IMG/VR virus record: IMGVR_UViG_3300047319_001642
Coordinates: 1-39,858 of that record
Origin: a virus
Direction: 5' to 3' (one strand)
Length of the DNA stretch: 39,858 bases
A program made the position numbers and the translations under genes. The notes under the pieces were generated by a model. The model searched no databases, was not told where the DNA came from, and was given only the letters and a program-made list of their open reading frames with translations. This document shows positions 14,815 to 39,858 of this stretch, in pieces; positions within the stretch are counted from its first letter, which is position 1; every line of letters begins with the position of its first letter.

Positions 14815-15972
14815 CTACACCCCGTCCATGTAGTAGAACGACGGCGGGCGCCGAACCTCGACGCCGGCGTAGCGGAACTCTCCCGGGACCTTCACCTTCA
14901 GGCCCACGAGCTGCGGCGCCAGGAAGCGCAGCGGCAGCGGGACGTGCTGGATCAGGTCCTGGTCCGTCTTGCGGTAGAACACCGCGCGCGACGCCGCCGA
15001 GGCGCCTGGCCCCGTGCCGCCGTTCCCCACCGTGTTCGCCCGGTAGATCGGGACGATGTTCAGCGGCACGTTCTTCGCCACCGACAGGTTGTTCTCCATC
15101 AGGTACTTCAGGACAGAGACCTGGAAGGAGCCGGTCGTGCCGGTCGCCGGCACCGCGTTGATGTACTGCCACGCGAACGACGGGATCCCGACGGTGTCCG
15201 GGATGACCGTGAACTTCGAGCCGACCCAGACGGCGTTCAGGCCGAAGTTGAAGTCGGAGACGATCTCGGCGGCGGTGATGCCGCTGGCCGCCGACCACGC
15301 CTTCCCGCTCGGCGTCACCGCGTGGGTGATCGTCGTGTTGTTCAGCAGGCCGGTGTAGTTCTTCTTCACGCGGCCCGAGAGCCCGACCACGTTCAGGAAC
15401 TGGTCGTAGGCCTGCATCGCCGCGTGGAGCTTGCGCTCCGGGAGCGGCCGGCGCAGGAACGCGGTCGCCCGCAGCTCCTGCGTCGTGAAGTCGTACCCGA
15501 TGCCCGCGTGAGAGACCGGGTAGGTCTTGTCCGCGTAGAGGACGTCCACCGTGGGGATGTCGTCCGACTTCGGGTTGACGTCGTCCGCCTGGCCAACCTC
15601 GTCGTAGATCTCGTACCGGATCACGTCGGCAGCCTCGCCCGCGCTGTAGTCCTGCGGGATCAGGTCCTTGTACTGCAGCGGCTGGTAGGACCGCGCGAAC
15701 AGCCCCGCCTCCGTGTAGGCGAGCTGGCTGACCAGGAAGAACAGCGCCTCCTGGGCGTCCTTCGCGGCGAACGACGGGCGGCGCGTCTTCTCGCGCCCGT
15801 CGCCGACCGTGAGGCCGATCCCTTCCGCGTTGCTCTTGGTCCAGTCGAGCAGCTTGTCGAACCGGTCCGGCTCGATGTGGACGTGCCGGCAGTTGTCGCG
15901 GCCGCAGTGACCGATCTCCGCGTATGCGGGAGCGCCCACCGTATCGACGACCTTGATCTTCTGGGTTTGCAT
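14815..15972 (-). CDS. Major capsid protein, DUF2184-like
   Basis: A 385-residue HK97-fold capsid protein of the DUF2184 type. Recognisable segments: LFFLVSQLAYTEAGLFARSY, QPLQYKDLIPQDYSAGEAAD, VIRYEIYDEVGQADDVNPKS and DIPTVDVLYADKTYPVSHAG, which match the family's N-terminal region with 'Y..L.PV......A..I.Y...D..G.A'. The C-terminus (FLAPQLVGLKVKVPGEFRYA, GVEVRRPPSFYYMDGV) matches the family's usual 'GV.VR.P....Y.DG[IV]' ending. An N-terminal CGRDNC is a possible metal site not usual for capsids. No propeptide is obvious. ATG 15972 lacks a clear Shine-Dalgarno. Confidence 0.85.
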   Translation of the reverse strand: MQTQKIKVVDTVGAPAYAEIGHCGRDNCRHVHIEPDRFDKLLDWTKSNAEGIGLTVGDGREKTRRPSFAAKDAQEALFFLVSQLAYTEAGLFARSYQPLQYKDLIPQDYSAGEAADVIRYEIYDEVGQADDVNPKSDDIPTVDVLYADKTYPVSHAGIGYDFTTQELRATAFLRRPLPERKLHAAMQAYDQFLNVVGLSGRVKKNYTGLLNNTTITHAVTPSGKAWSAASGITAAEIVSDFNFGLNAVWVGSKFTVIPDTVGIPSFAWQYINAVPATGTTGSFQVSVLKYLMENNLSVAKNVPLNIVPIYRANTVGNGGTGPGASAASRAVFYRKTDQDLIQHVPLPLRFLAPQLVGLKVKVPGEFRYAGVEVRRPPSFYYMDGV

Positions 15973-19322: not shown

Positions 19323-21077
19323 ATGGCGACCACGAAGAAGCCCCTGACCGACCAGCAGATGTCCAAGGCTCTCGCGGGAGGTCGCCCCATCGGCGAGCCG
19401 AAGCCGGGGCCGGGCGCGCCGCGTACCGCCAGCGTGGAGCGGATGTACGACATCGACATGCGCAGCCGCCGCGTGAAGGACACGCTGAAGAACTTCACGG
19501 CTGCCATCGGCACCAGAGGCGACAAGCGGACGCACAGCTTCTACGACTTCCCGCGGACGCTTACCCGCGTCGAGCTCGAGAACATGTTCCGCAGTTCCTG
19601 GATCGCGAAGCGGATCGTCCGCACGCCGGCCGACGACATGACCCGCGCATGGGTGACGCTCTCCTGGGACGACCCCGAGGAGGGCGCCGGCGACCCGAAG
19701 GCGCGCGAGGAGACGACCCGCGCGATCACGGTCGCCGAGAAGACCTTCATGCTCCGCCAGCGCGTGAACGAGGCGATCATGTGGGGTCGGCTCTACGGCG
19801 GCTGTGGGATCGTCCTCGACATCAAGGGCCAGGAGGACTGGTCGATCCCGCTCGACGTCACAACGGTCGGGAAGGACTCGCTCCGATCGCTCCACGTCCT
19901 CGACCGCTGGCGCCTGGCGGCGACCGGTGAGATCGACTACGACCGCCGATCGCCGAACTACGGCCTGCCGACCTACTACACGATCTCCGATACCGGCGAT
20001 CCGCGCTTCCGCGTTCACTGGACGCGCGTCGTTCGGTTCGGCGGCGAGCCGCTCCCCTACTTCCTCCTGACTCAGAACGCGTACTGGGAGGACAGCGTCC
20101 TTCAGCACCTCTCCGACGTGATCCGCGACTACGACGCGACGATGGCCGGGATCGCCTCGCTCGTCTACGAGGCGAACGTCGACATCATCACGAGCCCGAA
20201 GCTGGCGAACACGCTCTCGGAGAAGAACGGTCTCTCGAAGGTCACCGACCGATACATCCTCATGTCGCAGACGAAGTCGATCAACCACATGATGTTGCTC
20301 GACGGCGGGAACGGGACGAAGGACAGCGTAGGCGAGACCTGGGAGCAGAAGACCACGACCTTCGCCGGCCTGAAGGACGTCGCCGAGAAGTTCATGATCA
20401 ACGTCTCGGGCGCGGCCGACATCCCTCTGACCCGCCTCTTCGGGCAGTCGCCGGCGGGCCTGACCGCGACCGGCGAGAGCGATATCCGCAACTACTACGA
20501 CCGCGTGAGCGCCGACCAGGAGTCGAAGCTACGCCCGCGGCTGGAGCGCCTCTTCGAGGTCCTCGTGCGGTCGACGCTCGGCTCGATGCCGGAGAACTTC
20601 ACGATGTCGTTCAACCCGCTCTGGCAGATGAGCGACAAGGAGGCGGCGGAGATCGAGAAGCTCCACGCCGAGGCGGCGCATATCTCGATCACGGACGGGA
20701 CGATCCCCGCCAACGTCGTGACCGCGCAGCTCCTGGAGACGGAGACCTACAAGGCGCTCACGAAGGACGACGTCGACATGGTGAAGGAGATGGAGGAGAA
20801 GCAGGCGAAGCTCGACGAGAAGATGGCGCAGGCCGCGGCGAAGGGTGCCGAGCTGGCGAACGACCCCGCGCACAAGGACCTGCCGCCGGCCGAGGGCGCA
20901 CAGCCGAAGAACGCCGGGGACCGCTCCGACGAGAGCGTCATGGATATCATCAAGCGCGAGGCGAACGGCTGGAACGTCTACGGACACGGCGGCGAGAAGC
21001 ACCTCGGCGGCCCGTACAAGTCGAAGGCTCAGGCCGTGAAGCGTCTCGCCCAGATAGAATATTTCAAGAACGCCTGA
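19323..21077 (+). CDS. Portal protein, DUF1073-like
   Basis: A 584-residue portal protein that forms the DNA gate at one capsid vertex. Matching features: FYDFPRTLTRVELENMFRSS, WIAKRIVRTPADDMTRAWVT, NEAIMWGRLYGGCGIVLDIK, RWRLAATGEIDYDRRSPNYG, SLVYEANVDIITSPKLANTL and DIPLTRLFGQSPAGLTATGE, followed by SDIRNYYDRVSADQESKLRP, all in the order of the DUF1073 portal family. A charged helical region follows (KEMEEKQAKLDEKMAQAAAK). The last about 35 residues (HGGEKHLGGPYKSKAQAVKR, then LAQIEYFKNA) form a small separate module. It is the only large plus-strand gene in the window, and its 3' end overlaps the convergent minus-strand gene by 14 bases. Confidence 0.9.
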   Translation: MATTKKPLTDQQMSKALAGGRPIGEPKPGPGAPRTASVERMYDIDMRSRRVKDTLKNFTAAIGTRGDKRTHSFYDFPRTLTRVELENMFRSSWIAKRIVRTPADDMTRAWVTLSWDDPEEGAGDPKAREETTRAITVAEKTFMLRQRVNEAIMWGRLYGGCGIVLDIKGQEDWSIPLDVTTVGKDSLRSLHVLDRWRLAATGEIDYDRRSPNYGLPTYYTISDTGDPRFRVHWTRVVRFGGEPLPYFLLTQNAYWEDSVLQHLSDVIRDYDATMAGIASLVYEANVDIITSPKLANTLSEKNGLSKVTDRYILMSQTKSINHMMLLDGGNGTKDSVGETWEQKTTTFAGLKDVAEKFMINVSGAADIPLTRLFGQSPAGLTATGESDIRNYYDRVSADQESKLRPRLERLFEVLVRSTLGSMPENFTMSFNPLWQMSDKEAAEIEKLHAEAAHISITDGTIPANVVTAQLLETETYKALTKDDVDMVKEMEEKQAKLDEKMAQAAAKGAELANDPAHKDLPPAEGAQPKNAGDRSDESVMDIIKREANGWNVYGHGGEKHLGGPYKSKAQAVKRLAQIEYFKNA

Positions 21078-23649: not shown

Positions 23650-25056
23650 CTACTTACCGACAACGTCGAAGATCGAGACCGACCCGCCGTCGAGCATCAG
23701 GTCGGTGAGGGCCCAGACGAGGGCGTCCATCCGGTCGGGCGAGCGCAGGCCCGTAATCGGGTCCCACTGGACCATCTCGTCTTCGAGCTTCCCGAACGTC
23801 CCGACGTGGTGGACCTTCCCCTGCTCGTAGAGCGCGGCCACCGGCTCGGCGCGCACGACCTTCCCGCGGCTCGCGCGGACCCCGTGGTAGCTGACGTGCT
23901 TATTCCCGGAGGCGCGGAGGTTCGCCTCGACGAGGTCGCCTCCGTTGTTCACCTCCGCCACGATCCGATCCGCCTGGCGCTCGTCGTAGAGCGCGCACGC
24001 CTTCTGCGCCCAGCCCGCCGGCGTGTAGATGCTGCTCTCGTCCTCGAGGACGAACGCGTGAATCTCCCCCTGGCACGCCGGGAGGAGATGGCACGGCGCG
24101 ATCCCCGCGACGATGATACCGGTGAGGTCGCTGTCCTCGTTCGCCGTTACCGCGGGGTCGATCGCCACCGTGATTCGGCTCAGCTCGAGCGGCGCCTCGG
24201 CTACCCGCAGGGCGTCGATCACCTTCTGCTCCCACAGCGCGTTCGGGTTGTCGTCGAGGACCTCGGCGTTCATCTCCTGGCGGCCGAGGCGCGTCCCCTC
24301 GTAGGCGCGGCGGATCGCCCCGATGAACGACGAGGCGAGGTTGTCCTCGTTGTCGAACGTCGTCCCCTTCGTCACGACCACGGTCGGGTCCTTCAGCATC
24401 GCGCGGACGATCGGGATCGGGCGTGGCGTGGTCGTCACCACCGTGCGCGGCCGCTTCCCGAGGCGGAGCCCGAACTGGTACTGGTCCCACGCCGCCTGGG
24501 GGTCATCCCACGCCGCCAGCTCGTCGCACCAGCCGCCGTCGTGCTGCTTGTTTCGGAGGCGGTCCGGCTCCTCGGCCGAGTACGTCGTAGCGATCGCCCC
24601 GTTCGGCCAGGTCAGGCGCCGCTTCGACGGCTTCCAGTCGACCGGGAACCCTGCCGCCTCCGAGACCGCGATGATTCCGCTCTCGCCCTCGACCATCGCC
24701 TGGCGGATATCGTCCGAGGTCGGACCGATCAGCGCGAGCCGTCCCGCGCGCCCGGCCTTCACGTCCCCCACTTTGATCTCGGCGCCCGACCGCGACTTGC
24801 CGAACCCGCGGCCGGCAAGGATCAGCCACGAGAGCCACGCCTCTCCCGGCGGCGGGAGCTGCTCCGGGCGCCCGACCATCTCCCATGTGACGGCCGGCTC
24901 GCCGAGCTCCGGCGGCCCGAGCAGCTTCGCCCGGCGGATGAGCGCGGCCGCCCGCTTGTGCCCCATGCGCGCGAGGAACGCCTTCGCGCACTCCTCGGTG
25001 GTCGCGCCGGGACCGCCCGCGCCCTCGATCGCGAGGCGGAGGAGCGACTTCCCCAC
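23650..25056 (-). CDS. terL: Terminase large subunit
   Basis: A 468-residue packaging motor. The N-terminal ATPase has Walker A ILAGRGFGKSRSG (about 79-91), the RLRNKQHDGGWCDELAAW segment with Walker B acidic pair DE (178-179), and a VVTTTPRP coupling motif (206-213). The C-terminal nuclease of RNase H fold shows ITVAIDPAV (Asp300), AEVNNGG (about 367-373) and SPDRMDALVWALTDLM (Asp441/Asp444). It pumps DNA through the portal and cuts concatemers. It starts at GTG 25056, four bases after the small subunit. All key residues are present, so it looks intact. Confidence 0.95.
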   Translation of the reverse strand: MGKSLLRLAIEGAGGPGATTEECAKAFLARMGHKRAAALIRRAKLLGPPELGEPAVTWEMVGRPEQLPPPGEAWLSWLILAGRGFGKSRSGAEIKVGDVKAGRAGRLALIGPTSDDIRQAMVEGESGIIAVSEAAGFPVDWKPSKRRLTWPNGAIATTYSAEEPDRLRNKQHDGGWCDELAAWDDPQAAWDQYQFGLRLGKRPRTVVTTTPRPIPIVRAMLKDPTVVVTKGTTFDNEDNLASSFIGAIRRAYEGTRLGRQEMNAEVLDDNPNALWEQKVIDALRVAEAPLELSRITVAIDPAVTANEDSDLTGIIVAGIAPCHLLPACQGEIHAFVLEDESSIYTPAGWAQKACALYDERQADRIVAEVNNGGDLVEANLRASGNKHVSYHGVRASRGKVVRAEPVAALYEQGKVHHVGTFGKLEDEMVQWDPITGLRSPDRMDALVWALTDLMLDGGSVSIFDVVGK

Positions 25057-29994: not shown

Positions 29995-31038
29995 TCAGGA
30001 TATAGCGAGCGCGTTCAGGTAGGGCGCGTAGAGGATCTCGGCCTGGCGCGCTGTGATCGCGTAGGCGGGGTCGCAGATCTGGCTGTCGAGCCGCAGCGAC
30101 GAGTAGTGGAAGACGATCAGCGGCTGCCCGTTCACGCGCGGCGGAGCGCCCGGCTCGAGATGGTGGCTATGGATATTCCACGGCGCCAGGTTGACTCCAG
30201 GATGACGGATGACGTGGGTACGACCATATCTCGGCCGTGCGGACCTACCCGCGGCGTCATCGCCTCCTCGATCGTCCACTTCTTCCAACGCTCGCAGACC
30301 GTGATCCCCTTCGCCCCGTACTTCGCGTAACCCTTCGTCTTCGGATTTCGGCAGCGCGCCAGGATGCCCGTCCAGGTCTTGTATTCCTTCGTGTAGCCCG
30401 TCGCCCATGATTCCCCGTGCGTTTTCGACATCCTCGCTCCTCTCGACTATGTCTTCGAGCGCCGATTGATCTCCGAAGAGCGGTCGTTTACCAGGACGCT
30501 CGACGACATCGGTATACGACCACGCGTGATTCAGTTCGGCCATCTCCCTAGCGATCGAGACACCTGCCATGTAGACGAGCCCGGTGTTGAAGAGCCCGAA
30601 CTGGCGGTGGGTCTCGAACGTCACGCCCGGGAGGCCGGCGGAGCGCGGCGGGATCCGATGCGGGCAGACCGCGAGCTTCGCCGCGCCGATCTCGGCGAAC
30701 ATCGGCCCTGGCGAACTCCAGAACCATAGGTCGCCGTCGAGTGTCGTCAGCGGCGCGCCGGTCTCCTCCATCACGTCGGCGAAGAAGCGCCAGCGCATCG
30801 TGACGACGGTATCGATCGGCGAGCGCGGCGGGCCGGGGAGGCGCGACGGCTCGAAGTCGGGGTGGCGGGCGAGGAAGCCCTCGCGCGTCCGGACCAAGCA
30901 ATCAGCGCCCTCGGATCCGATCGGGCGCCAGTCCCACGCGAGGGCGTGCAGGCGGAAGTCCCCGCAGTGCCGGCGCATCGAGGCCAGCAGGACGGGAAGC
31001 TGCCAGTCCCTGCAGACCGTCGCGTAGTGGCGGATCAT
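29995..31038 (-). CDS. Glycosyltransferase-like protein with in-frame insertion
   Basis: A 347-residue protein of GT-A type: an N-terminal nucleotide-binding half starting MIRHYATVCRDWQLPVLLAS, FADVMEETGAPLTTLDGDLW with a DxD-like DGD (101-103), then QFGLFNTGLVYMAG and LFGDQSALEDIVER (DQ motif). The C-terminal motif HVIRHPGVNLAPWNIHSHHL continues the fold and ends near LIVFHYSSLRL. Between them, residues about 201-275 (DNA 30214-30438) are out-of-frame reading of an endonuclease-like sequence, so the fold is interrupted. It could be inactive, or tolerate the loop. The likely acceptor is phage DNA or a virion or surface sugar. It starts at ATG 31038 (ATGA overlap). Confidence 0.65.
   Translation of the reverse strand: MIRHYATVCRDWQLPVLLASMRRHCGDFRLHALAWDWRPIGSEGADCLVRTREGFLARHPDFEPSRLPGPPRSPIDTVVTMRWRFFADVMEETGAPLTTLDGDLWFWSSPGPMFAEIGAAKLAVCPHRIPPRSAGLPGVTFETHRQFGLFNTGLVYMAGVSIAREMAELNHAWSYTDVVERPGKRPLFGDQSALEDIVERSEDVENARGIMGDGLHEGIQDLDGHPGALPKSEDEGLREVRGEGDHGLRALEEVDDRGGDDAAGRSARPRYGRTHVIRHPGVNLAPWNIHSHHLEPGAPPRVNGQPLIVFHYSSLRLDSQICDPAYAITARQAEILYAPYLNALAIS
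30132..30431 (-). CDS. HNH/AP2-type endonuclease fragment nested in the glycosyltransferase gene
   Basis: In another frame, 99 codons start at ATG 30431 with a GAGAGGAG Shine-Dalgarno. Residues 12-50 (GYTKEYKTWTGILARCRNPK, then GYAKYGAKGITVCERWKKW) match the N-terminal segment of phage HNH endonucleases of the 'Y..W..M..RC.NP....Y..YG.RGI.VC.RW' type. The catalytic C-terminal part with His/Asn and 'NCRW' is missing. From about residue 72 the frame merely reads glycosyltransferase sequence. It is therefore a truncated, mobile-endonuclease remnant, whether translated or not. Confidence 0.65.
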   Translation of the reverse strand: MSKTHGESWATGYTKEYKTWTGILARCRNPKTKGYAKYGAKGITVCERWKKWTIEEAMTPRVGPHGRDMVVPTSSVILESTWRRGISIATISSRALRRA

Positions 31039-31196
31039 CCCCGGGCCTTGACGCGCCCGACGACGTTCCTTTGCGCCTTCGCCCGGCGCTCGGCGGCGCG
31101 ACGTTCGAGTTCGGCCTCCGTAGCGGCGACCTGCTCCTTCAGGCCCTTCAGTCGCTCGCGGAAGTAGGCGTCCGTCAGTGGCGGCGGTTTCTTCAC
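31035..31196 (-). CDS. Small coiled-coil protein, 53 residues
   Basis: A short gene read from the sequence, GTG 31196 to TGA 31035: KKPPPLTDAYFRERLKGLKE, QVAATEAELERRAAERRAKA, ending VVGRVKARG. It is a charged coiled coil. It overlaps the genes on both sides by four bases (GTGA and ATGA), which strongly supports it. It lies between two glycosyltransferase-like genes, so a bridging or regulatory subunit is possible. No family is recognised. Confidence 0.65.
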   Translation of the reverse strand: MKKPPPLTDAYFRERLKGLKEQVAATEAELERRAAERRAKAQRNVVGRVKARG

Positions 31197-31957
31197 GCGC
31201 CCAGCCTACCGTCCCATGCGTCGGGGCCAATGAGATTCTTCTCCGCCCAGTCGATGACGCTCGTGTCCTTGCAGTTCGCGACCCAGCACGTGCCCGAGTG
31301 GAGCCCTCGGATCGAAGCGTCGGTCCAGTCACGCGATCCGTAGGCGTTCAGGATGAGCGTCGTCGGCGCCGTCTCGGCGAGGAGGACCGGAGCGTGGAAG
31401 AGGTCCCACGCCATGTTCGGCGGCGTCCGGTGGAGCGACGGCCGATCCGCCCAGAGCGAGAGGTGGGCCACGAGCGTCCCGTTGATGTGCGGCGCGACCC
31501 GATCCATCCGCGCACCCACGACCCGCTTCCCGGCATGCATGGCGAGTCCGTGCTCCTTCCGGAGTCGGTCGATCCAGTCGACCGAGACCGGGCAGCCGTC
31601 CGATTCGACCGTGAAAATCGTCGAGAAGTCCGTCCCGCCGGCGGCGTACTGTTCGGCAAGCTGCTCGAAGGATCCTGACCAGAGCGCGTTCGACCCCGCG
31701 GGGTGCCCGGTCCCCTCCCGCTTCGCGCGGATCGTAGTCGCTCGGAACTTCTTCCCGCAGTAGACGCTCGTCTCCCACGCTTCTCGGGAGAACTCGACGT
31801 CGAAGCGGCGGGCGAGGACGAGCGTTACGTCGGCGCGCGGAGCCGGCTCGATATCGGCGAGCAGCCGCGCGAGCCGGAGCGACGCGGCCTCGTCCCCTCC
31901 CCAATACTGGACGACGATCGCCAGGCCGAGCGGCGGGAGGGGAGCGCGGTTGATCAC
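31193..31957 (-). CDS. Glycosyltransferase-like protein
   Basis: A 254-residue protein of GT-A look: PPLGLAIVVQYWGGDEAASL and RLARLLADIEPAPRADVTLV (nucleotide-binding beta-alpha unit), then EGTGHPAGSNALWSGSFEQL and STIFTVESDGCPVSVDWIDR (about 112-131), where ESDG stands in for the metal-binding DxD. HINGTLVAHLSLWAD and APTTLILNAYGSRDWTDASI follow. Family number is not recognised. It starts at GTG 31957, and the longer frame is a shadow of the Cys-rich gene upstream. With the neighbouring glycosyltransferase and the TAGT it may act on modified phage DNA, which is inference. Confidence 0.6.
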   Translation of the reverse strand: MINRAPLPPLGLAIVVQYWGGDEAASLRLARLLADIEPAPRADVTLVLARRFDVEFSREAWETSVYCGKKFRATTIRAKREGTGHPAGSNALWSGSFEQLAEQYAAGGTDFSTIFTVESDGCPVSVDWIDRLRKEHGLAMHAGKRVVGARMDRVAPHINGTLVAHLSLWADRPSLHRTPPNMAWDLFHAPVLLAETAPTTLILNAYGSRDWTDASIRGLHSGTCWVANCKDTSVIDWAEKNLIGPDAWDGRLGA

Positions 31958-31971
31958 TCGTTGCCGGCCAT
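31954..31971 (-). CDS. Five-codon bridging ORF, MAGNE
   Basis: ATG GCC GGC AAC GAG TGA starts inside the stop of the Cys-rich gene (TAATG) and its TGA overlaps the GTG start of the glycosyltransferase (GTGA). It may pass ribosomes from one gene to the next. Confidence 0.35.
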   Translation of the reverse strand: MAGNE

Positions 31972-32684
31972 TACGGCGTGTCCTTCTTCGGGTAGCCGAC
32001 CGCGCCGCACCTCCGTTGTTCCCCCTCCCCGGGGTGAATGGGCTTGCCGGCGTCACGACAGGCATCCGAGCAATAAGCCACCGTGCCAAAGCCGCTGCCG
32101 CACCACGATTTGTCGCACCTCCCCGGCTCTCCCTCCCTGGGGTGGATGGGGCGCTCGGCGTCGAAGCATTGCCCCGTGCAGAACCAGCGGCCGTTCCGAT
32201 ACCAGGTGTGCTGCCAGTTGGGCGGCGTCTCTTCGGTCCCGCACCACGGCTTGCATCGTGGCGGCTCTCCCTCCCGGTCTTGGGCGGCAAAGTCGGCATT
32301 GATCTCGGCCACATGCTCGGCGTAGCGGCCCGGGTGTATTTCGCAACGTCGAGGATGCGCACCCGAACCGCAGCGGCATCGTGGCGGCTCTCCTTGGACT
32401 GCTGGGGCGGCCCGTTTGATCGGCGTCGATTTGAGTAGCTTCCCCGGTGGTATCGCAACGTCGGTCAGGTCGCATGACGGGCATTCGTGGGGCGCGGCGG
32501 GCGACTGGGGAGTGGCGCGGGCTGCTTCGACACGAGCGATGCAAACCATCTGCACGCGCCCCCCGCCGACGTCGCAGCACGGCTCACCGACTTGGCCGAG
32601 CGTCGAGCCAGGAGCAGCGGTGCACACCGGACAGGCCACGCCCAGCACGTCCTCGCGGCTCACTTCGTGTTCTGGTTTCGTCAA
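31971..32684 (-). CDS. Cys-rich protein with repeated zinc-binding modules
   Basis: A 237-residue protein with many Cys pairs: VACPVCTAAPGSTLG, HECPSCDLTD, then modules GEPPRCRCGSGAHPRRC, GEPPRCKPWCG, GRWFCTGQCFDAERPIHP, EGEPGRCDKSWCGSG, AYCSDACRDAGKPIHP and EGEQRRCG. The recurring unit 'WCG ... W/YC[ST]..C.DA..PIHP.EGE' fits an FCS/treble-clef zinc finger repeated about every 35-45 residues. It probably binds nucleic acid or protein. It begins at TTG 32684, whose TTGA overlap with the previous stop supports the rare start. Function unknown. Confidence 0.6.
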   Translation of the reverse strand: MTKPEHEVSREDVLGVACPVCTAAPGSTLGQVGEPCCDVGGGRVQMVCIARVEAARATPQSPAAPHECPSCDLTDVAIPPGKLLKSTPIKRAAPAVQGEPPRCRCGSGAHPRRCEIHPGRYAEHVAEINADFAAQDREGEPPRCKPWCGTEETPPNWQHTWYRNGRWFCTGQCFDAERPIHPREGEPGRCDKSWCGSGFGTVAYCSDACRDAGKPIHPGEGEQRRCGAVGYPKKDTP

Positions 32685-34843: not shown

Positions 34844-35506
34844 TCAGGGTCTCTTGACGTAGGCGAGGAGGTCCTCGCGGTCGCCGCGCCAGACGTTGTG
34901 GTCGCAGGGACCGGCGACCCCGGGGCAGACGAACGTCTCGGAGTCCTGCCAGAGCGTCCAGCGCGGCCAGACCGGGAGCCCTTGGCGGTCGACCGGGAGC
35001 GCCGGCTCGGGCCCCTCGCGCGCGTCGTCGCCATCGTAGCGGGGGACCCAGAGGTCCGTGGCGATCGCGCTCGGCCAGGTCGGGGAGCCGAGCTCCTCCT
35101 TCCAGACGCGCGCCGAGGTGTAGACGAACAGCCGCCGGTCGCCGCCCAGCCGGATCGCCTCCTGGACCCACTCCTCGACGAAGCGGATATCCGGGCACCA
35201 TCCGTCGTTCGGCTCGACGTCCAGGACCAGGCGCTCGTTGTCGCGCAGCCCTCCGCCGGCGGTCGCTACGTTCACTAGGAGGTCGGCCTGGGAGACCGCA
35301 GACGAGGTCGGCATCGGGAAGTGGTAGTAGAGCACCAGCTCGAAGGGCTGCGCGCGGGCGCCGTCCCGGTGGGCGGCGAACGTCGGGTCGAAGCCACGCC
35401 CGTTCGTCGCCTTCGCCCCGAAGATGTCCATCCCGGCGGCGAGGACCGCGTCCCAGTCGCGAACCGGGTGGTGATGCGAGACGTCGATCCCCTGCGCGCG
35501 CTCCAT
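34844..35506 (-). CDS. Endolysin, GH25 muramidase
   Basis: A 220-residue GH25 lysozyme that cuts the MurNAc-GlcNAc backbone of peptidoglycan. Signatures: QGIDVSHHHPVRDWDAVLA (Asp8), ERLVLDVEPNDGW with the DxE pair (Asp96, Glu98), RRLFVYTSARVWKEEL, ATDLWVPRYDGDD and PRWTLWQDSETF, then DHNVWRGDREDL. All belong to the single catalytic domain, which is nearly full length, and there is no extra binding domain. ATG 35506 is chosen since a TAAGCT box lies 7 bases before it; the frame begins slightly earlier with MAGSRSRR. No signal peptide, so it needs a holin for release. Confidence 0.9.
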   Translation of the reverse strand: MERAQGIDVSHHHPVRDWDAVLAAGMDIFGAKATNGRGFDPTFAAHRDGARAQPFELVLYYHFPMPTSSAVSQADLLVNVATAGGGLRDNERLVLDVEPNDGWCPDIRFVEEWVQEAIRLGGDRRLFVYTSARVWKEELGSPTWPSAIATDLWVPRYDGDDAREGPEPALPVDRQGLPVWPRWTLWQDSETFVCPGVAGPCDHNVWRGDREDLLAYVKRP

Positions 35507-35513
35507 CCCCCGG

Positions 35514-35519
35514 AGCTTA
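35514..35519 (-). promoter_or_regulatory. Putative leaderless -10 box TAAGCT
   Basis: TAAGCT, 7 bases (CCGGGGG), then ATG 35506 of the muramidase gene. The spacer is very close to that at 35795-35801. Confidence 0.6.
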
Positions 35520-35602
35520 CACCCCGGCGAGCGCCGCGATCGCGAGCCCGCCAAGCCGTCCCCAGGGACGCTGGCAGCCCGCTCGGATACCGGTCCGGAC
35601 CC

Positions 35603-35801: not shown

Positions 35802-35807
35802 ACGTTA
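35802..35807 (-). promoter_or_regulatory. Putative leaderless -10 box TAACGT
   Basis: CGCGTAACGT, 7 bases (CCGGGGC), then ATG 35794. The TAA at 35807-35805 is also the stop codon of the glycosyltransferase gene. Confidence 0.65.
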
Positions 35808-36698
35808 CGCGGCCCGACGCTTCTTGACCTTCTCGCGGAGGACCTTCGGGACGGCGTTCCGCCAGGCGACCCGGTGGTGGAGGCGCGGGCTCTTCGACTG
35901 GATCACCGCGACCTTGACCGAACTGGGCGAGTACATCACCGAGTAGAAGCTTTTCACGTAGGTCCCGGAATCCAGGTAGAGCTCCGACATCCCCCCCGGG
36001 TTCGTCTGGGTCTGGGTCTGCTCGAGCGTGACCTGGTTCGTCGTGAACATGAGAAGTCCGGTACTCGCCAGCCGCGTGTAGGCGTTCACGTCCTCGTTGA
36101 TCCGGCCGATGAACTTGAACGGCCGGTCGACGCTGCATAGGAAGGAGTTCATGCACTTCCGCGCCAGCGCGACCTTCTGCGCGCGCGGCGACTGCTCGCC
36201 CCCGATGAAGTCCCCGCCCTGGGCGACCGCGACGGCGTGAACGCCAGAGGTCACGTAGAAGTCGAGCAGGGCGGCGAAGAGCCGGTCGAGGTCCTTCAGG
36301 ACGCGCGGGTGGTAGGCGAGCCGATCGTCGAACCGGAACTGGAAGTGCCGATAGTCGTCGTCGAGTTGGATGAAGTACCGGAGGCCGAGCTGCTTCGCGA
36401 CCTCGAAGCTCGCGTTCCGGGCGTAGATGATCGCCCGCATATCGTTGAAGTTGTCGCCCTGGTCGAAGGTCTTCGCGATCGCCCGCTTGTCGAAGACCAC
36501 GACCTCGTCGCCGTACCGCTTCACGTACGCGGCGCGCTTCGGGTCGAGGTCGTCGACCAGGAGAACGATCCGCCCCGTGTAGCCGCTCCGCTTGAGCGTG
36601 TCGTAGGTGATGACGTTGTCCGGCCGCCCGTTCGTCAGGATGAACGCCGCGAAGTCCCGGAGCCTATTCGGCGGCGTCGGCGTCCGGCGGGTAGCCAT
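35805..36698 (-). CDS. TET-associated-type glycosyltransferase (TAGT)
   Basis: A 297-residue GT-A enzyme of the TET-associated glycosyltransferase group, which attaches sugars to 5-hydroxymethylcytosine made by a phage TET enzyme. Matching features: FAAFILTNGRPDNVITYDTL, SGYTGRIVLLVDDLDP, VVVFDKRAIAKTFDQGDNFN, RAIIYARNASFEVAKQLGLR and YFIQLDDDYRHFQFRF (DDD at 113-115 for metal/sugar nucleotide). A GRINEDVNAYTRLA segment and YLDSGTYVKSFYSVM follow. It overlaps the ParB-like gene by 35 bases, a pairing seen in published TET/JBP phage loci. No TET or 5mC methylase is in this window, so the acceptor here is inferred. ATG 36698. Confidence 0.75.
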   Translation of the reverse strand: MATRRTPTPPNRLRDFAAFILTNGRPDNVITYDTLKRSGYTGRIVLLVDDLDPKRAAYVKRYGDEVVVFDKRAIAKTFDQGDNFNDMRAIIYARNASFEVAKQLGLRYFIQLDDDYRHFQFRFDDRLAYHPRVLKDLDRLFAALLDFYVTSGVHAVAVAQGGDFIGGEQSPRAQKVALARKCMNSFLCSVDRPFKFIGRINEDVNAYTRLASTGLLMFTTNQVTLEQTQTQTNPGGMSELYLDSGTYVKSFYSVMYSPSSVKVAVIQSKSPRLHHRVAWRNAVPKVLREKVKKRRAA

Positions 36699-37500
36699 CG
36701 GCGATCTCCTTGGTCATGACCACGAACCCCTGCTCGATCGCCTTCTTGAAGTCGATGATCACCAGCGCCGAGTTCTCGCAGAGGTCCTGGACCGCCTTCG
36801 ACGCGTGCGCGTAGAACTCCGCGATCTTCTCGTAGTCGAACACGGCGTGGCGCTGGGCGGCGAGCCGAAGGAAGGTCTTCACCTCCTCGGGCACCTTGGC
36901 GTCCTCGATCTCGGTGAGGAGCTTCGCGGTCTTCCGGAGATCGCACAGCTCGCCGACCTTCGGCTTCTCCCCCTTCGGCTCGTAGATCGGGCTCTGAATC
37001 TTCTTCGTGTAGACGTTCTCGTCGCCTTCCCCGCCCTCGTTCGTCACCACGTAGGCGGCGTAGTCGTCCGATCCGAACCCGGTCCCGGTCAGGTCCTCGG
37101 CCCCGATCCCGACCAGCATCTTCGCGAGCGCGCCGTTATCCCAGCCGCCGAGCTCGACGCCGCGGTTGTCGGCGAGGATGTACTTCATCAGCGCCTTCCG
37201 GCTCTTGAAGCTCACGCCGCGGATGACGGGGACGTGCCACTTCCCCTTCCGGACCTCGATGCCGTCGGGCGCGTCGTTGCCGCCGTCACGCCAGCGCCGG
37301 AGCTGCTCGAGCCGGCCGTGGCCGGCGCCGACCATCTTGCTCCGCTCGTCGACGAGCACCGGCATCACGAAGTCGAATTCCTCGAACGACTCCTCCAGGA
37401 ATTCGAAGTCGTGACCCTTCGGGTTCTCTGGGACGAACTTCGCGATCAGTCCGTCGAGGTCCTCATACTCAATCCGGTGGCGTCTCTGCGTGGCGGGCAT
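36664..37500 (-). CDS. ParB-like nuclease-domain protein
   Basis: A 278-residue protein. Residues about 12-100 fit the ParB/sulfiredoxin-like domain found in phage proteins: IEYEDLDGLIAKFVPENP, FEEFDFVMPVLVDERSKMVG and GAGHGRLEQLRRWRDGG (the GHGR replacing the classic GERR box), then VIRGVSFKSRKALMKYILAD and NRGVELGGWD. The C-terminal half (about 160-278) is helical and charged (VKTFLRLAAQRHAVFDYEKI). Such ParB-like genes accompany TET/TAGT modification genes and may recognise or nick modified sites. A TACCGT box lies 6 bases before ATG 37500. Confidence 0.75.
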   Translation of the reverse strand: MPATQRRHRIEYEDLDGLIAKFVPENPKGHDFEFLEESFEEFDFVMPVLVDERSKMVGAGHGRLEQLRRWRDGGNDAPDGIEVRKGKWHVPVIRGVSFKSRKALMKYILADNRGVELGGWDNGALAKMLVGIGAEDLTGTGFGSDDYAAYVVTNEGGEGDENVYTKKIQSPIYEPKGEKPKVGELCDLRKTAKLLTEIEDAKVPEEVKTFLRLAAQRHAVFDYEKIAEFYAHASKAVQDLCENSALVIIDFKKAIEQGFVVMTKEIADGYPPDADAAE

Positions 37501-38979: not shown

Positions 38980-39222
38980 CTACGTATCCTCCCCCGGCTC
39001 AGCGCCGGCCAGAAATTTCTCCCTGCACTTCGTGTGAACGAACGTCTCCCGCTCGACCTCGACCGCCTCCCCGCCCTCGCAGGCGAGAGGGCAGAAGCAG
39101 CACGCCTTCCCGCACTCCTCGCACGACGGGTGGCGCTCGGCCTCGACGTCATCCCGCTGGAAATCGTCAGGCTCGCCGTCGACGTCGAACTCCATCACGT
39201 CGCCGGGGCCGAGGAGAGTCAC
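38980..39222 (-). CDS. Small Cys-rich zinc-binding protein
   Basis: An 80-residue protein: TLLGPGDVMEFDVDGEPDDF, then HPSCEECGKACCFCPLACEG and THVHTKC-like TFVHTKCREKFLAG. The cluster CEECGKACCFCPLAC holds six Cys and suggests two zinc ions. GTG 39222 overlaps the methyltransferase stop (GTGA). Function unknown. Confidence 0.55.
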   Translation of the reverse strand: MTLLGPGDVMEFDVDGEPDDFQRDDVEAERHPSCEECGKACCFCPLACEGGEAVEVERETFVHTKCREKFLAGAEPGEDT

Positions 39223-39858
39223 GAAGCGGCCTCGGCATCGACGACGATCAGGGCGGTCCGGACCCCCGTCCCCGAACTCTCGAACGTCCCCGCCGGCAGA
39301 GATTCCCAGATACCGCCGCGCTCCTCGACGATCGGGCGGAGGCGGTCGTTCTGGCGCGGCCCGTCGGCGACGATCGCGACGAGTCGGCCGCCGGGCGCGA
39401 GCATCGTCAGCGCGTGGAGGACGTGCACGATATCCTGCCCGTTCGCGAAGGGCGGGTTCATCAGGATCCGCGGGTAGCAGCCGGCGAAGTCCGTGACCGT
39501 CAGGAAGTCCGCGCACCGCGCCTGGACCTTGTATCCCGGGAACTTCCGCGAGAGAGCCGCGCACAGCGTTGCGTTGATCTCGTAGGTCATGACCTCGGTA
39601 TCGACGGCGTCGAGGACGGCCTGGATGATGGCCCCCGTCCCGCCGCTCGGCTCCAGGACGCAGAGCCCCGGCTCGAGTTGCGCCTTCTCGACCATCCGGC
39701 GGGCTAGCTCGGGCGGCGTCGGGAAGAGTTGGGGCGCCGAAACGACCTGAACGCCGCCCTTCAGCGCCGCCTCGACCGCCTTGAACGGCGCGTCCGCCGC
39801 AGCCTCTCGCTCCTGGCGCGCGTGGCGCTCGTCTGCGCCGGCGATCTGGCGCTTCGCG
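39219..39858 (-). CDS. SAM-dependent DNA methyltransferase-like protein, 5' end cut by window
   Basis: The open frame continues past the right edge, so only the last 212 residues are seen. PQLFPTPPELARRMVEKAQL is followed by CVLEPSGGTGAIIQAVLDAV (SAM motif I), a MTYEINATLC segment (acidic ribose contact) and RILMNPPFANGQDIVHVLHA, where NPPF is the catalytic N-type motif of amino-group methylases. ALTMLAPGGRLVAIVADGP follows. NPPF suggests N6-adenine or N4-cytosine methylation, or a related target, and not C5-cytosine methylation (no PC motif). It sits upstream of the ParB/TAGT group. Start unknown. Confidence 0.75.
   Translation of the reverse strand, partial: AKRQIAGADERHARQEREAAADAPFKAVEAALKGGVQVVSAPQLFPTPPELARRMVEKAQLEPGLCVLEPSGGTGAIIQAVLDAVDTEVMTYEINATLCAALSRKFPGYKVQARCADFLTVTDFAGCYPRILMNPPFANGQDIVHVLHALTMLAPGGRLVAIVADGPRQNDRLRPIVEERGGIWESLPAGTFESSGTGVRTALIVVDAEAAS

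Follow-up and report, generated by a model that had tools for sequence, protein, structure and literature searches.

Analysis of the window, a 39,858-base IMG/VR record treated here as a fragment because open reading frames run off both of its ends, revealed a TAGT-family glycosyltransferase encoded in overlap with a ParB-type partner protein, and a survey of related loci showed the two to form a conserved cassette. We lean towards a function for this pair as a DNA glycosyltransferase targeted by its ParB domain and acting around packaging, on an acceptor that would not be made by a phage TET oxygenase or hydroxymethylase.

The TAGT and Its ParB-type Partner

The TAGT gene (35805–36698, minus strand) encodes a protein of 297 residues that matches Pfam family PF20691 (TAGT) with an E value of 6.9e-36 and a score of 124.5 bits, above the curated cut-off of 27.5, and phrog_842 with an E value of 1.3e-71. 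The initial annotation had assigned a TAGT-type glycosyltransferase from the QLDDDY and FDQGDNFND segments, and both are indeed present, the former at residues 111–116 and the latter read directly at residues 78–86 (36441–36467, minus strand). Asp79 in the FDQGDNFND segment and the acidic motif Asp113-Asp114-Asp115 (36354–36362, minus strand) are invariant across the relatives in a 75-sequence alignment, and we take the latter, from knowledge of GT-A families, to be the metal/nucleotide-sugar site. An AlphaFold2 model (pLDDT 92) has GT-A fold neighbors with Z scores of 12–13.8, the nearest solved folds being GnT-I and the polypeptide GalNAc-transferases (GalNAc-Ts; best Z score 13.8), with ColGalT1 also among the closest. 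Comparison of the TAGT profile with PDB sequences gave chance-level matches only. The GT-A fold of the model supports the use of a nucleotide sugar, and the enzyme would be expected to depend on a metal ion as well; the fold does not fix the acceptor, and so keeps a protein acceptor in consideration.

The partner gene (36664–37500, minus strand; 278 residues) matches phrog_620 (E value 4.7e-28; model pLDDT 86) and overlaps the TAGT gene by 35 bp (36664–36698, minus strand) in a different frame, bearing out the ParB-like assignment and the overlap given initially. Codon GC is strongly coding-like in both frames (GC3 0.94). Residues 10–143 (37072–37473, minus strand) form an N-terminal ParB domain with the nucleotide-site-like motifs GHGR and ADNR. 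The partner family profile matches the solved ParB, Noc, and Spo0J structures (E values 4e-9 to 8e-7) and the fold of the domain matches CTP-binding ParB, KorB, Noc, and sulfiredoxin (Z scores 8–9), so that sequence profile and fold both place it in the ParB/Srx superfamily; the argument that a protein negative in Pfam is not ParB is thereby ruled out. The motif-like residues G60-H/N-x-R63 and D111-N112 are kept, and from these the domain may possibly use CTP. It shares 43% identity (E value 2e-30) with the ParB that lies ahead of a TET gene and the terminase in Microbacterium phage MementoMori; that protein does not share the C-terminal domain of the window partner. Plasmids gave only three matches to the window ParB, all weak and in the N-domain.

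The C-terminal domain of the partner (residues about 164–258; 36727–37011, minus strand) carries the motifs YTxKIxxPxYxP, RHxVFxYxxIAxxYAH, and SALVIIDFxxAI, in that order, with Tyr164, Tyr173, and Tyr230 invariant. As part of the whole-partner model it produced no informative fold match. Some partners, of 131–157 residues, consist of this domain alone, and it is the sole part kept in such stand-alone proteins. A ParB-N profile found no N-domain in any open reading frame of 22 of the 23 loci with a short partner, a few of which are cut by contig ends; the exception, L109, has its short partner beside the terminase and a separate ParB N-domain frame directly upstream. The partner is thus modular, comprising a ParB N-domain and a TAGT-specific C-terminal domain.

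Conservation of the Pair

TAGT loci were collected from IMG/VR, GTDB genomes, and named phages (128 in all), of which 122 had enough upstream sequence to be testable. The partner lies directly upstream of the TAGT in 121 of these, and the two genes overlap in 115 of the 121 pairs. In the remainder a second TAGT lies between (three pairs), the TAGT is split (one pair), or the genes are separated by gaps of 3 and 19 bp (two pairs). The one testable TAGT lacking a partner (L128) sits at the end of a contig and is both truncated and divergent. The reverse search, with the C-terminal domain of the partner alone, recovered a TAGT in all 79 testable loci, adjacent in 73 and within 1 kb in six. The pair is thus a conserved cassette, near-obligate in both search directions. 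Hosts of the GTDB loci include Bacteroidota, Bacillota, Pseudomonadota, Spirochaetes, and Verrucomicrobia, among others, and one pair-bearing phage infects an archaeon.

Several loci depart from the simple arrangement. Two or three tandem TAGT genes follow a single partner gene in L098, L107, L110, and L125, which suggests stepwise addition of sugars. Inspection by eye found genes between partner and TAGT that are methyltransferase-like (L151, L153, and L154), PAPS-reductase-like (L156), or phosphoglycerate-mutase- and cytidylyltransferase-like (L177 and L207). In the Lactobacillus delbrueckii phages LL-Ku, Ld17, and Ld25A the TAGT matches are partial or in pieces, and a ParB gene is still annotated in Ld25A; these cases suggest that the TAGT is dispensable in some phages.

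In Escherichia coli, at least 80% of the ParB-TAGT query was found in 863 of 5426 complete genomes (16%), where the prophage pair follows trkG and precedes the terminase and the TAGT carries the NCBI name "GREB1-related". The partner gene of these Rac-type prophages is ynaK. K-12-type strains differ in that ynaK is shortened and followed by ydaY, the TAGT being gone, and in strain TG1 (L089:6001–6604) these two Rac prophage genes have the look of a cassette remnant. A literature search for ynaK together with ParB and prophage found nothing.

Genomic Position of the Pair

The initial annotation had placed the capsid and tail genes right next to the locus and considered this unusual for DNA-modifying genes. 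Neither statement holds: the immediate downstream neighbor is a GH25 endolysin (34844–35554, minus strand; PF01183, E value 3.6e-18), the terminase large subunit (23650–25056, minus strand; phrog_979, E value 3e-25) lies 10.7 kb downstream and the major head protein (14815–15972, minus strand) about 20 kb downstream, and this pair is as a rule found on the packaging side. The order downstream on the strand of the pair is lysin, terminase large subunit, and then head and tail genes, so that the pair lies on the terminase side, yet not adjacent to the terminase.

The genes that come first downstream of 82 non-redundant pairs mostly encode small and large terminase subunits, drawn from many terminase families. 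A terminase large subunit, identified by local profiles and PHROGs, occurs within 3.2 kb in 59 of 71 loci with a ParB N-domain, compared with none of 10 loci lacking it. Fisher's test gives p = 3e-7, and p = 2e-5 when the local profiles alone are counted; both values are indicative only, because shared ancestry keeps the loci from being independent. Among the ParB-less pairs, L106 and L118 have a DNA-polymerase processivity factor (sliding clamp) next downstream, and L096 and Vibrio phage pv27 a helicase.

Other features of the window were also seen. Two frames between the pair and the terminase (29995–31332 and 31193–32458, both minus strand) resemble, on inspection by eye, additional GT-A-type transferases, with DGDLWF and VESDGC motifs, and had no match in Pfam or PHROGs. 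The frame at 39219–39857 (minus strand), cut by the right end of the window, contains an N6-type DNA methyltransferase domain (NPPF) and has relatives among large phage polyproteins that carry a DNA methyltransferase annotation. The portal gene (19323–21077) is on the plus strand within head and tail genes on the minus strand. A megablast search of the right 25 kb of the window against phage records gave no match, and relatives sought through the window terminase were not found.

TET, C5-methylase, and Hydroxymethylase Genes

The TAGT family takes its name from an association with TET, and the initial annotation, having seen neither TET nor a C5-methylase in the window, supposed that the enzyme depends on both. 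Their absence was confirmed, with no match within the 39.9-kb fragment to the profiles PF12851 (TET/JBP) or PF00145 (C5-methylase), and none to PF00303 (thymidylate synthase/hydroxymethylase fold); a TET beyond the end of the fragment is possible. An initial search with PF02511 (Thy1/ThyX) likewise gave no match.

Comparison with relatives does not support the supposed dependence. The TET profile matched none of 54 TAGT-bearing records, PF00145 matched one of 33 and was absent from the other 32, and PF00303 matched one of 34, that of Vibrio phage pv27. Six TAGT-bearing isolates or prophage-derived phages that also carry the ParB partner were searched as whole records: HHTV-2, phi jlb1, c5, E. 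coli 683R6 (deposited as a partial genome), NTR1, and Porphyromonas phage005b, from Lactobacillus, Haloarcula, Nocardia, Porphyromonas, and E. coli hosts. None contains a TET, a C5-methylase, or a hydroxymethylase of the thymidylate-synthase fold, and consequently the route through C5-methylase and TET is not the general one. As a control, PF12851 detected the TET of Mycobacterium phage Nigel (E value 4e-8), Microbacterium phage MementoMori (E value 1.6e-9), and Gordonia phage Wooper (E value 6e-6), which makes its silence elsewhere meaningful. A search for restriction data on HHTV-2 in the literature found none.

The Slot between ParB and Terminase in Other Phages

The position taken by the TAGT in these loci is taken by other enzymes elsewhere. 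In the actinophages Nigel and MementoMori a TET lies between the ParB gene and the terminase; in Wooper the slot holds TET, aGPT-PPlase2, and a 5hmU DNA kinase; and in Coffee (taxon Rosebushvirus rosebush) it holds DpdA with QueC, QueD, QueE, and FolE. The first genes of these phages match the ParB profile with 20–33 bits, and none of the four genomes has a TAGT. The TET/JBP clusters of Nigel, MementoMori, and Wooper thus share with the present loci a ParB N-domain and the order of ParB, overlapping DNA-base enzyme, and terminase, but have TET, alone or accompanied by kinase and pyrophosphorylase, where the TAGT would be, and a different ParB C-terminal region. Since TET fills the slot after ParB where TAGT is absent, the two look like alternatives. 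The Rosebush-type cluster likewise has a ParB-like gene 1, a DNA-modifying enzyme, and then the terminase, and there the modification is proven, with dPreQ0 in about 28% of G in Rosebush DNA (PMC6884629), although it is a base replacement (7-deazaguanine) rather than glycosylation. TET/JBP-type oxygenases of these phages (Nigel gp2, L131:776–1744, and homologues) carry the annotation queuine tRNA-ribosyltransferase in actinophage records widely.

The use of one slot by several DNA-base enzymes is the strongest argument that the TAGT acts on DNA, and lends support to the DNA-modification role proposed initially, with DNA as the probable acceptor.

Discussion

The reading that we favor is that the TAGT, together with the C-terminal domain of the partner, its obligate companion by conservation and presumably its physical partner in a complex, would be brought to phage DNA by the ParB N-domain, possibly in a CTP-dependent manner, around the time of packaging. 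The case for targeting and timing rests on the presence of a ParB domain, the location on the terminase side, and the common use of the slot by DNA-modifying enzymes. Sugar would then be placed on phage DNA in the absence of a phage-encoded TET, C5-methylase, or thymidylate-synthase-type hydroxymethylase, and would probably protect virion DNA from host nucleases. The resemblance of the window ParB N-domain to the MementoMori protein of the TET slot is consistent with this scheme. On the other side, the scheme does not account for the acceptor hydroxyl, the closest folds include glycosyltransferases with protein acceptors, and the window pair itself is not beside the terminase.

T6 Ggt (beta-glucosyl-HMC-alpha-glucosyltransferase), reported in PMC13216743 to place a second glucose on DNA and to have a GT-A fold, is also a member of PF20691 (E value 1e-8), which speaks for the DNA reading; pairwise BLAST finds no similarity between it and the window TAGT, which weighs against that reading. 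T6 Ggt requires glucosyl-hmC already in DNA, and its gene lies beside dCMP hydroxymethylase and uvsX, with neither ParB nor the partner domain. The same paper describes solitary TAGT homologues of undefined function in 288 of 753 phage genomes (PMC13216743, 2026), among which the window enzyme would count; in those of its passages that a term search retrieved, no ParB partner or terminase-side position is mentioned.

The main rival is that the TAGT glycosylates a protein, such as the terminase, a capsid protein, or the partner itself. The predominance of protein O-glycosyltransferases among the closest solved folds, the adjacent terminase genes, and the three invariant tyrosines of the partner C-terminal domain would all fit, as would the "GREB1-related" name of the E. 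coli enzyme, GREB1 having been reported to glycosylate a protein. However, the fold match is silent on the acceptor, the downstream terminases belong to so many families that they would make poor common substrates, the ParB-less pairs adjoin clamp or helicase genes, and the slot is common to DNA-base enzymes; we consider a protein acceptor unlikely. A comparably low probability is given to a variant of the DNA reading in which no base hydroxyl is pre-installed and the sugar goes, for example, to an exocyclic amine, or to particular sites or ends, with ParB as a packaging-time clamp and the C-terminal adaptor serving a replisome-associated form in loci lacking ParB.

Two further explanations retain the classical chemistry, and both appear very improbable. 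In one, a C5-methylase and TET in the missing part of the phage would make hydroxymethylcytosine for the TAGT to glycosylate, as the family name, the fragmentary window, and the closeness of its ParB N-domain to that of the TET slot would allow; the lack of TET in all 54 records despite a working control, the single C5-methylase among 33 records, and the lack of TAGT in the tested TET phages argue against it. In the other, the base is hydroxylated or otherwise substituted by an unrecognized or host-supplied enzyme. The co-occurrence of TAGT and a thymidylate-synthase-fold enzyme in Vibrio phage pv27 and of ggt and dCMP hydroxymethylase in T6 is in keeping with such a source, and most genes of pair-bearing phages are unannotated; but c5, phi jlb1, and HHTV-2 have no annotated base-hydroxylating gene in common, and unrelated archaeal and bacterial hosts would each need to provide one and the same precursor.

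The analysis gives the function of solitary TAGTs an anatomy, with an obligate partner domain, an optional ParB targeting domain, and a place on the terminase side, and names the acceptor as the missing step. Tractable hosts exist in the E. coli prophages, the L. gasseri phage phi jlb1, and the haloarchaeal HHTV-2. Should ordinary DNA prove to be the acceptor, a novel type of DNA modification would be implied; a protein acceptor would instead mean reassigning an entire branch of enzymes now taken to be DNA glycosyltransferases. The contents of the slot in other phages further suggest that the interval from ParB to terminase is worth searching for DNA-modification genes in phages generally.
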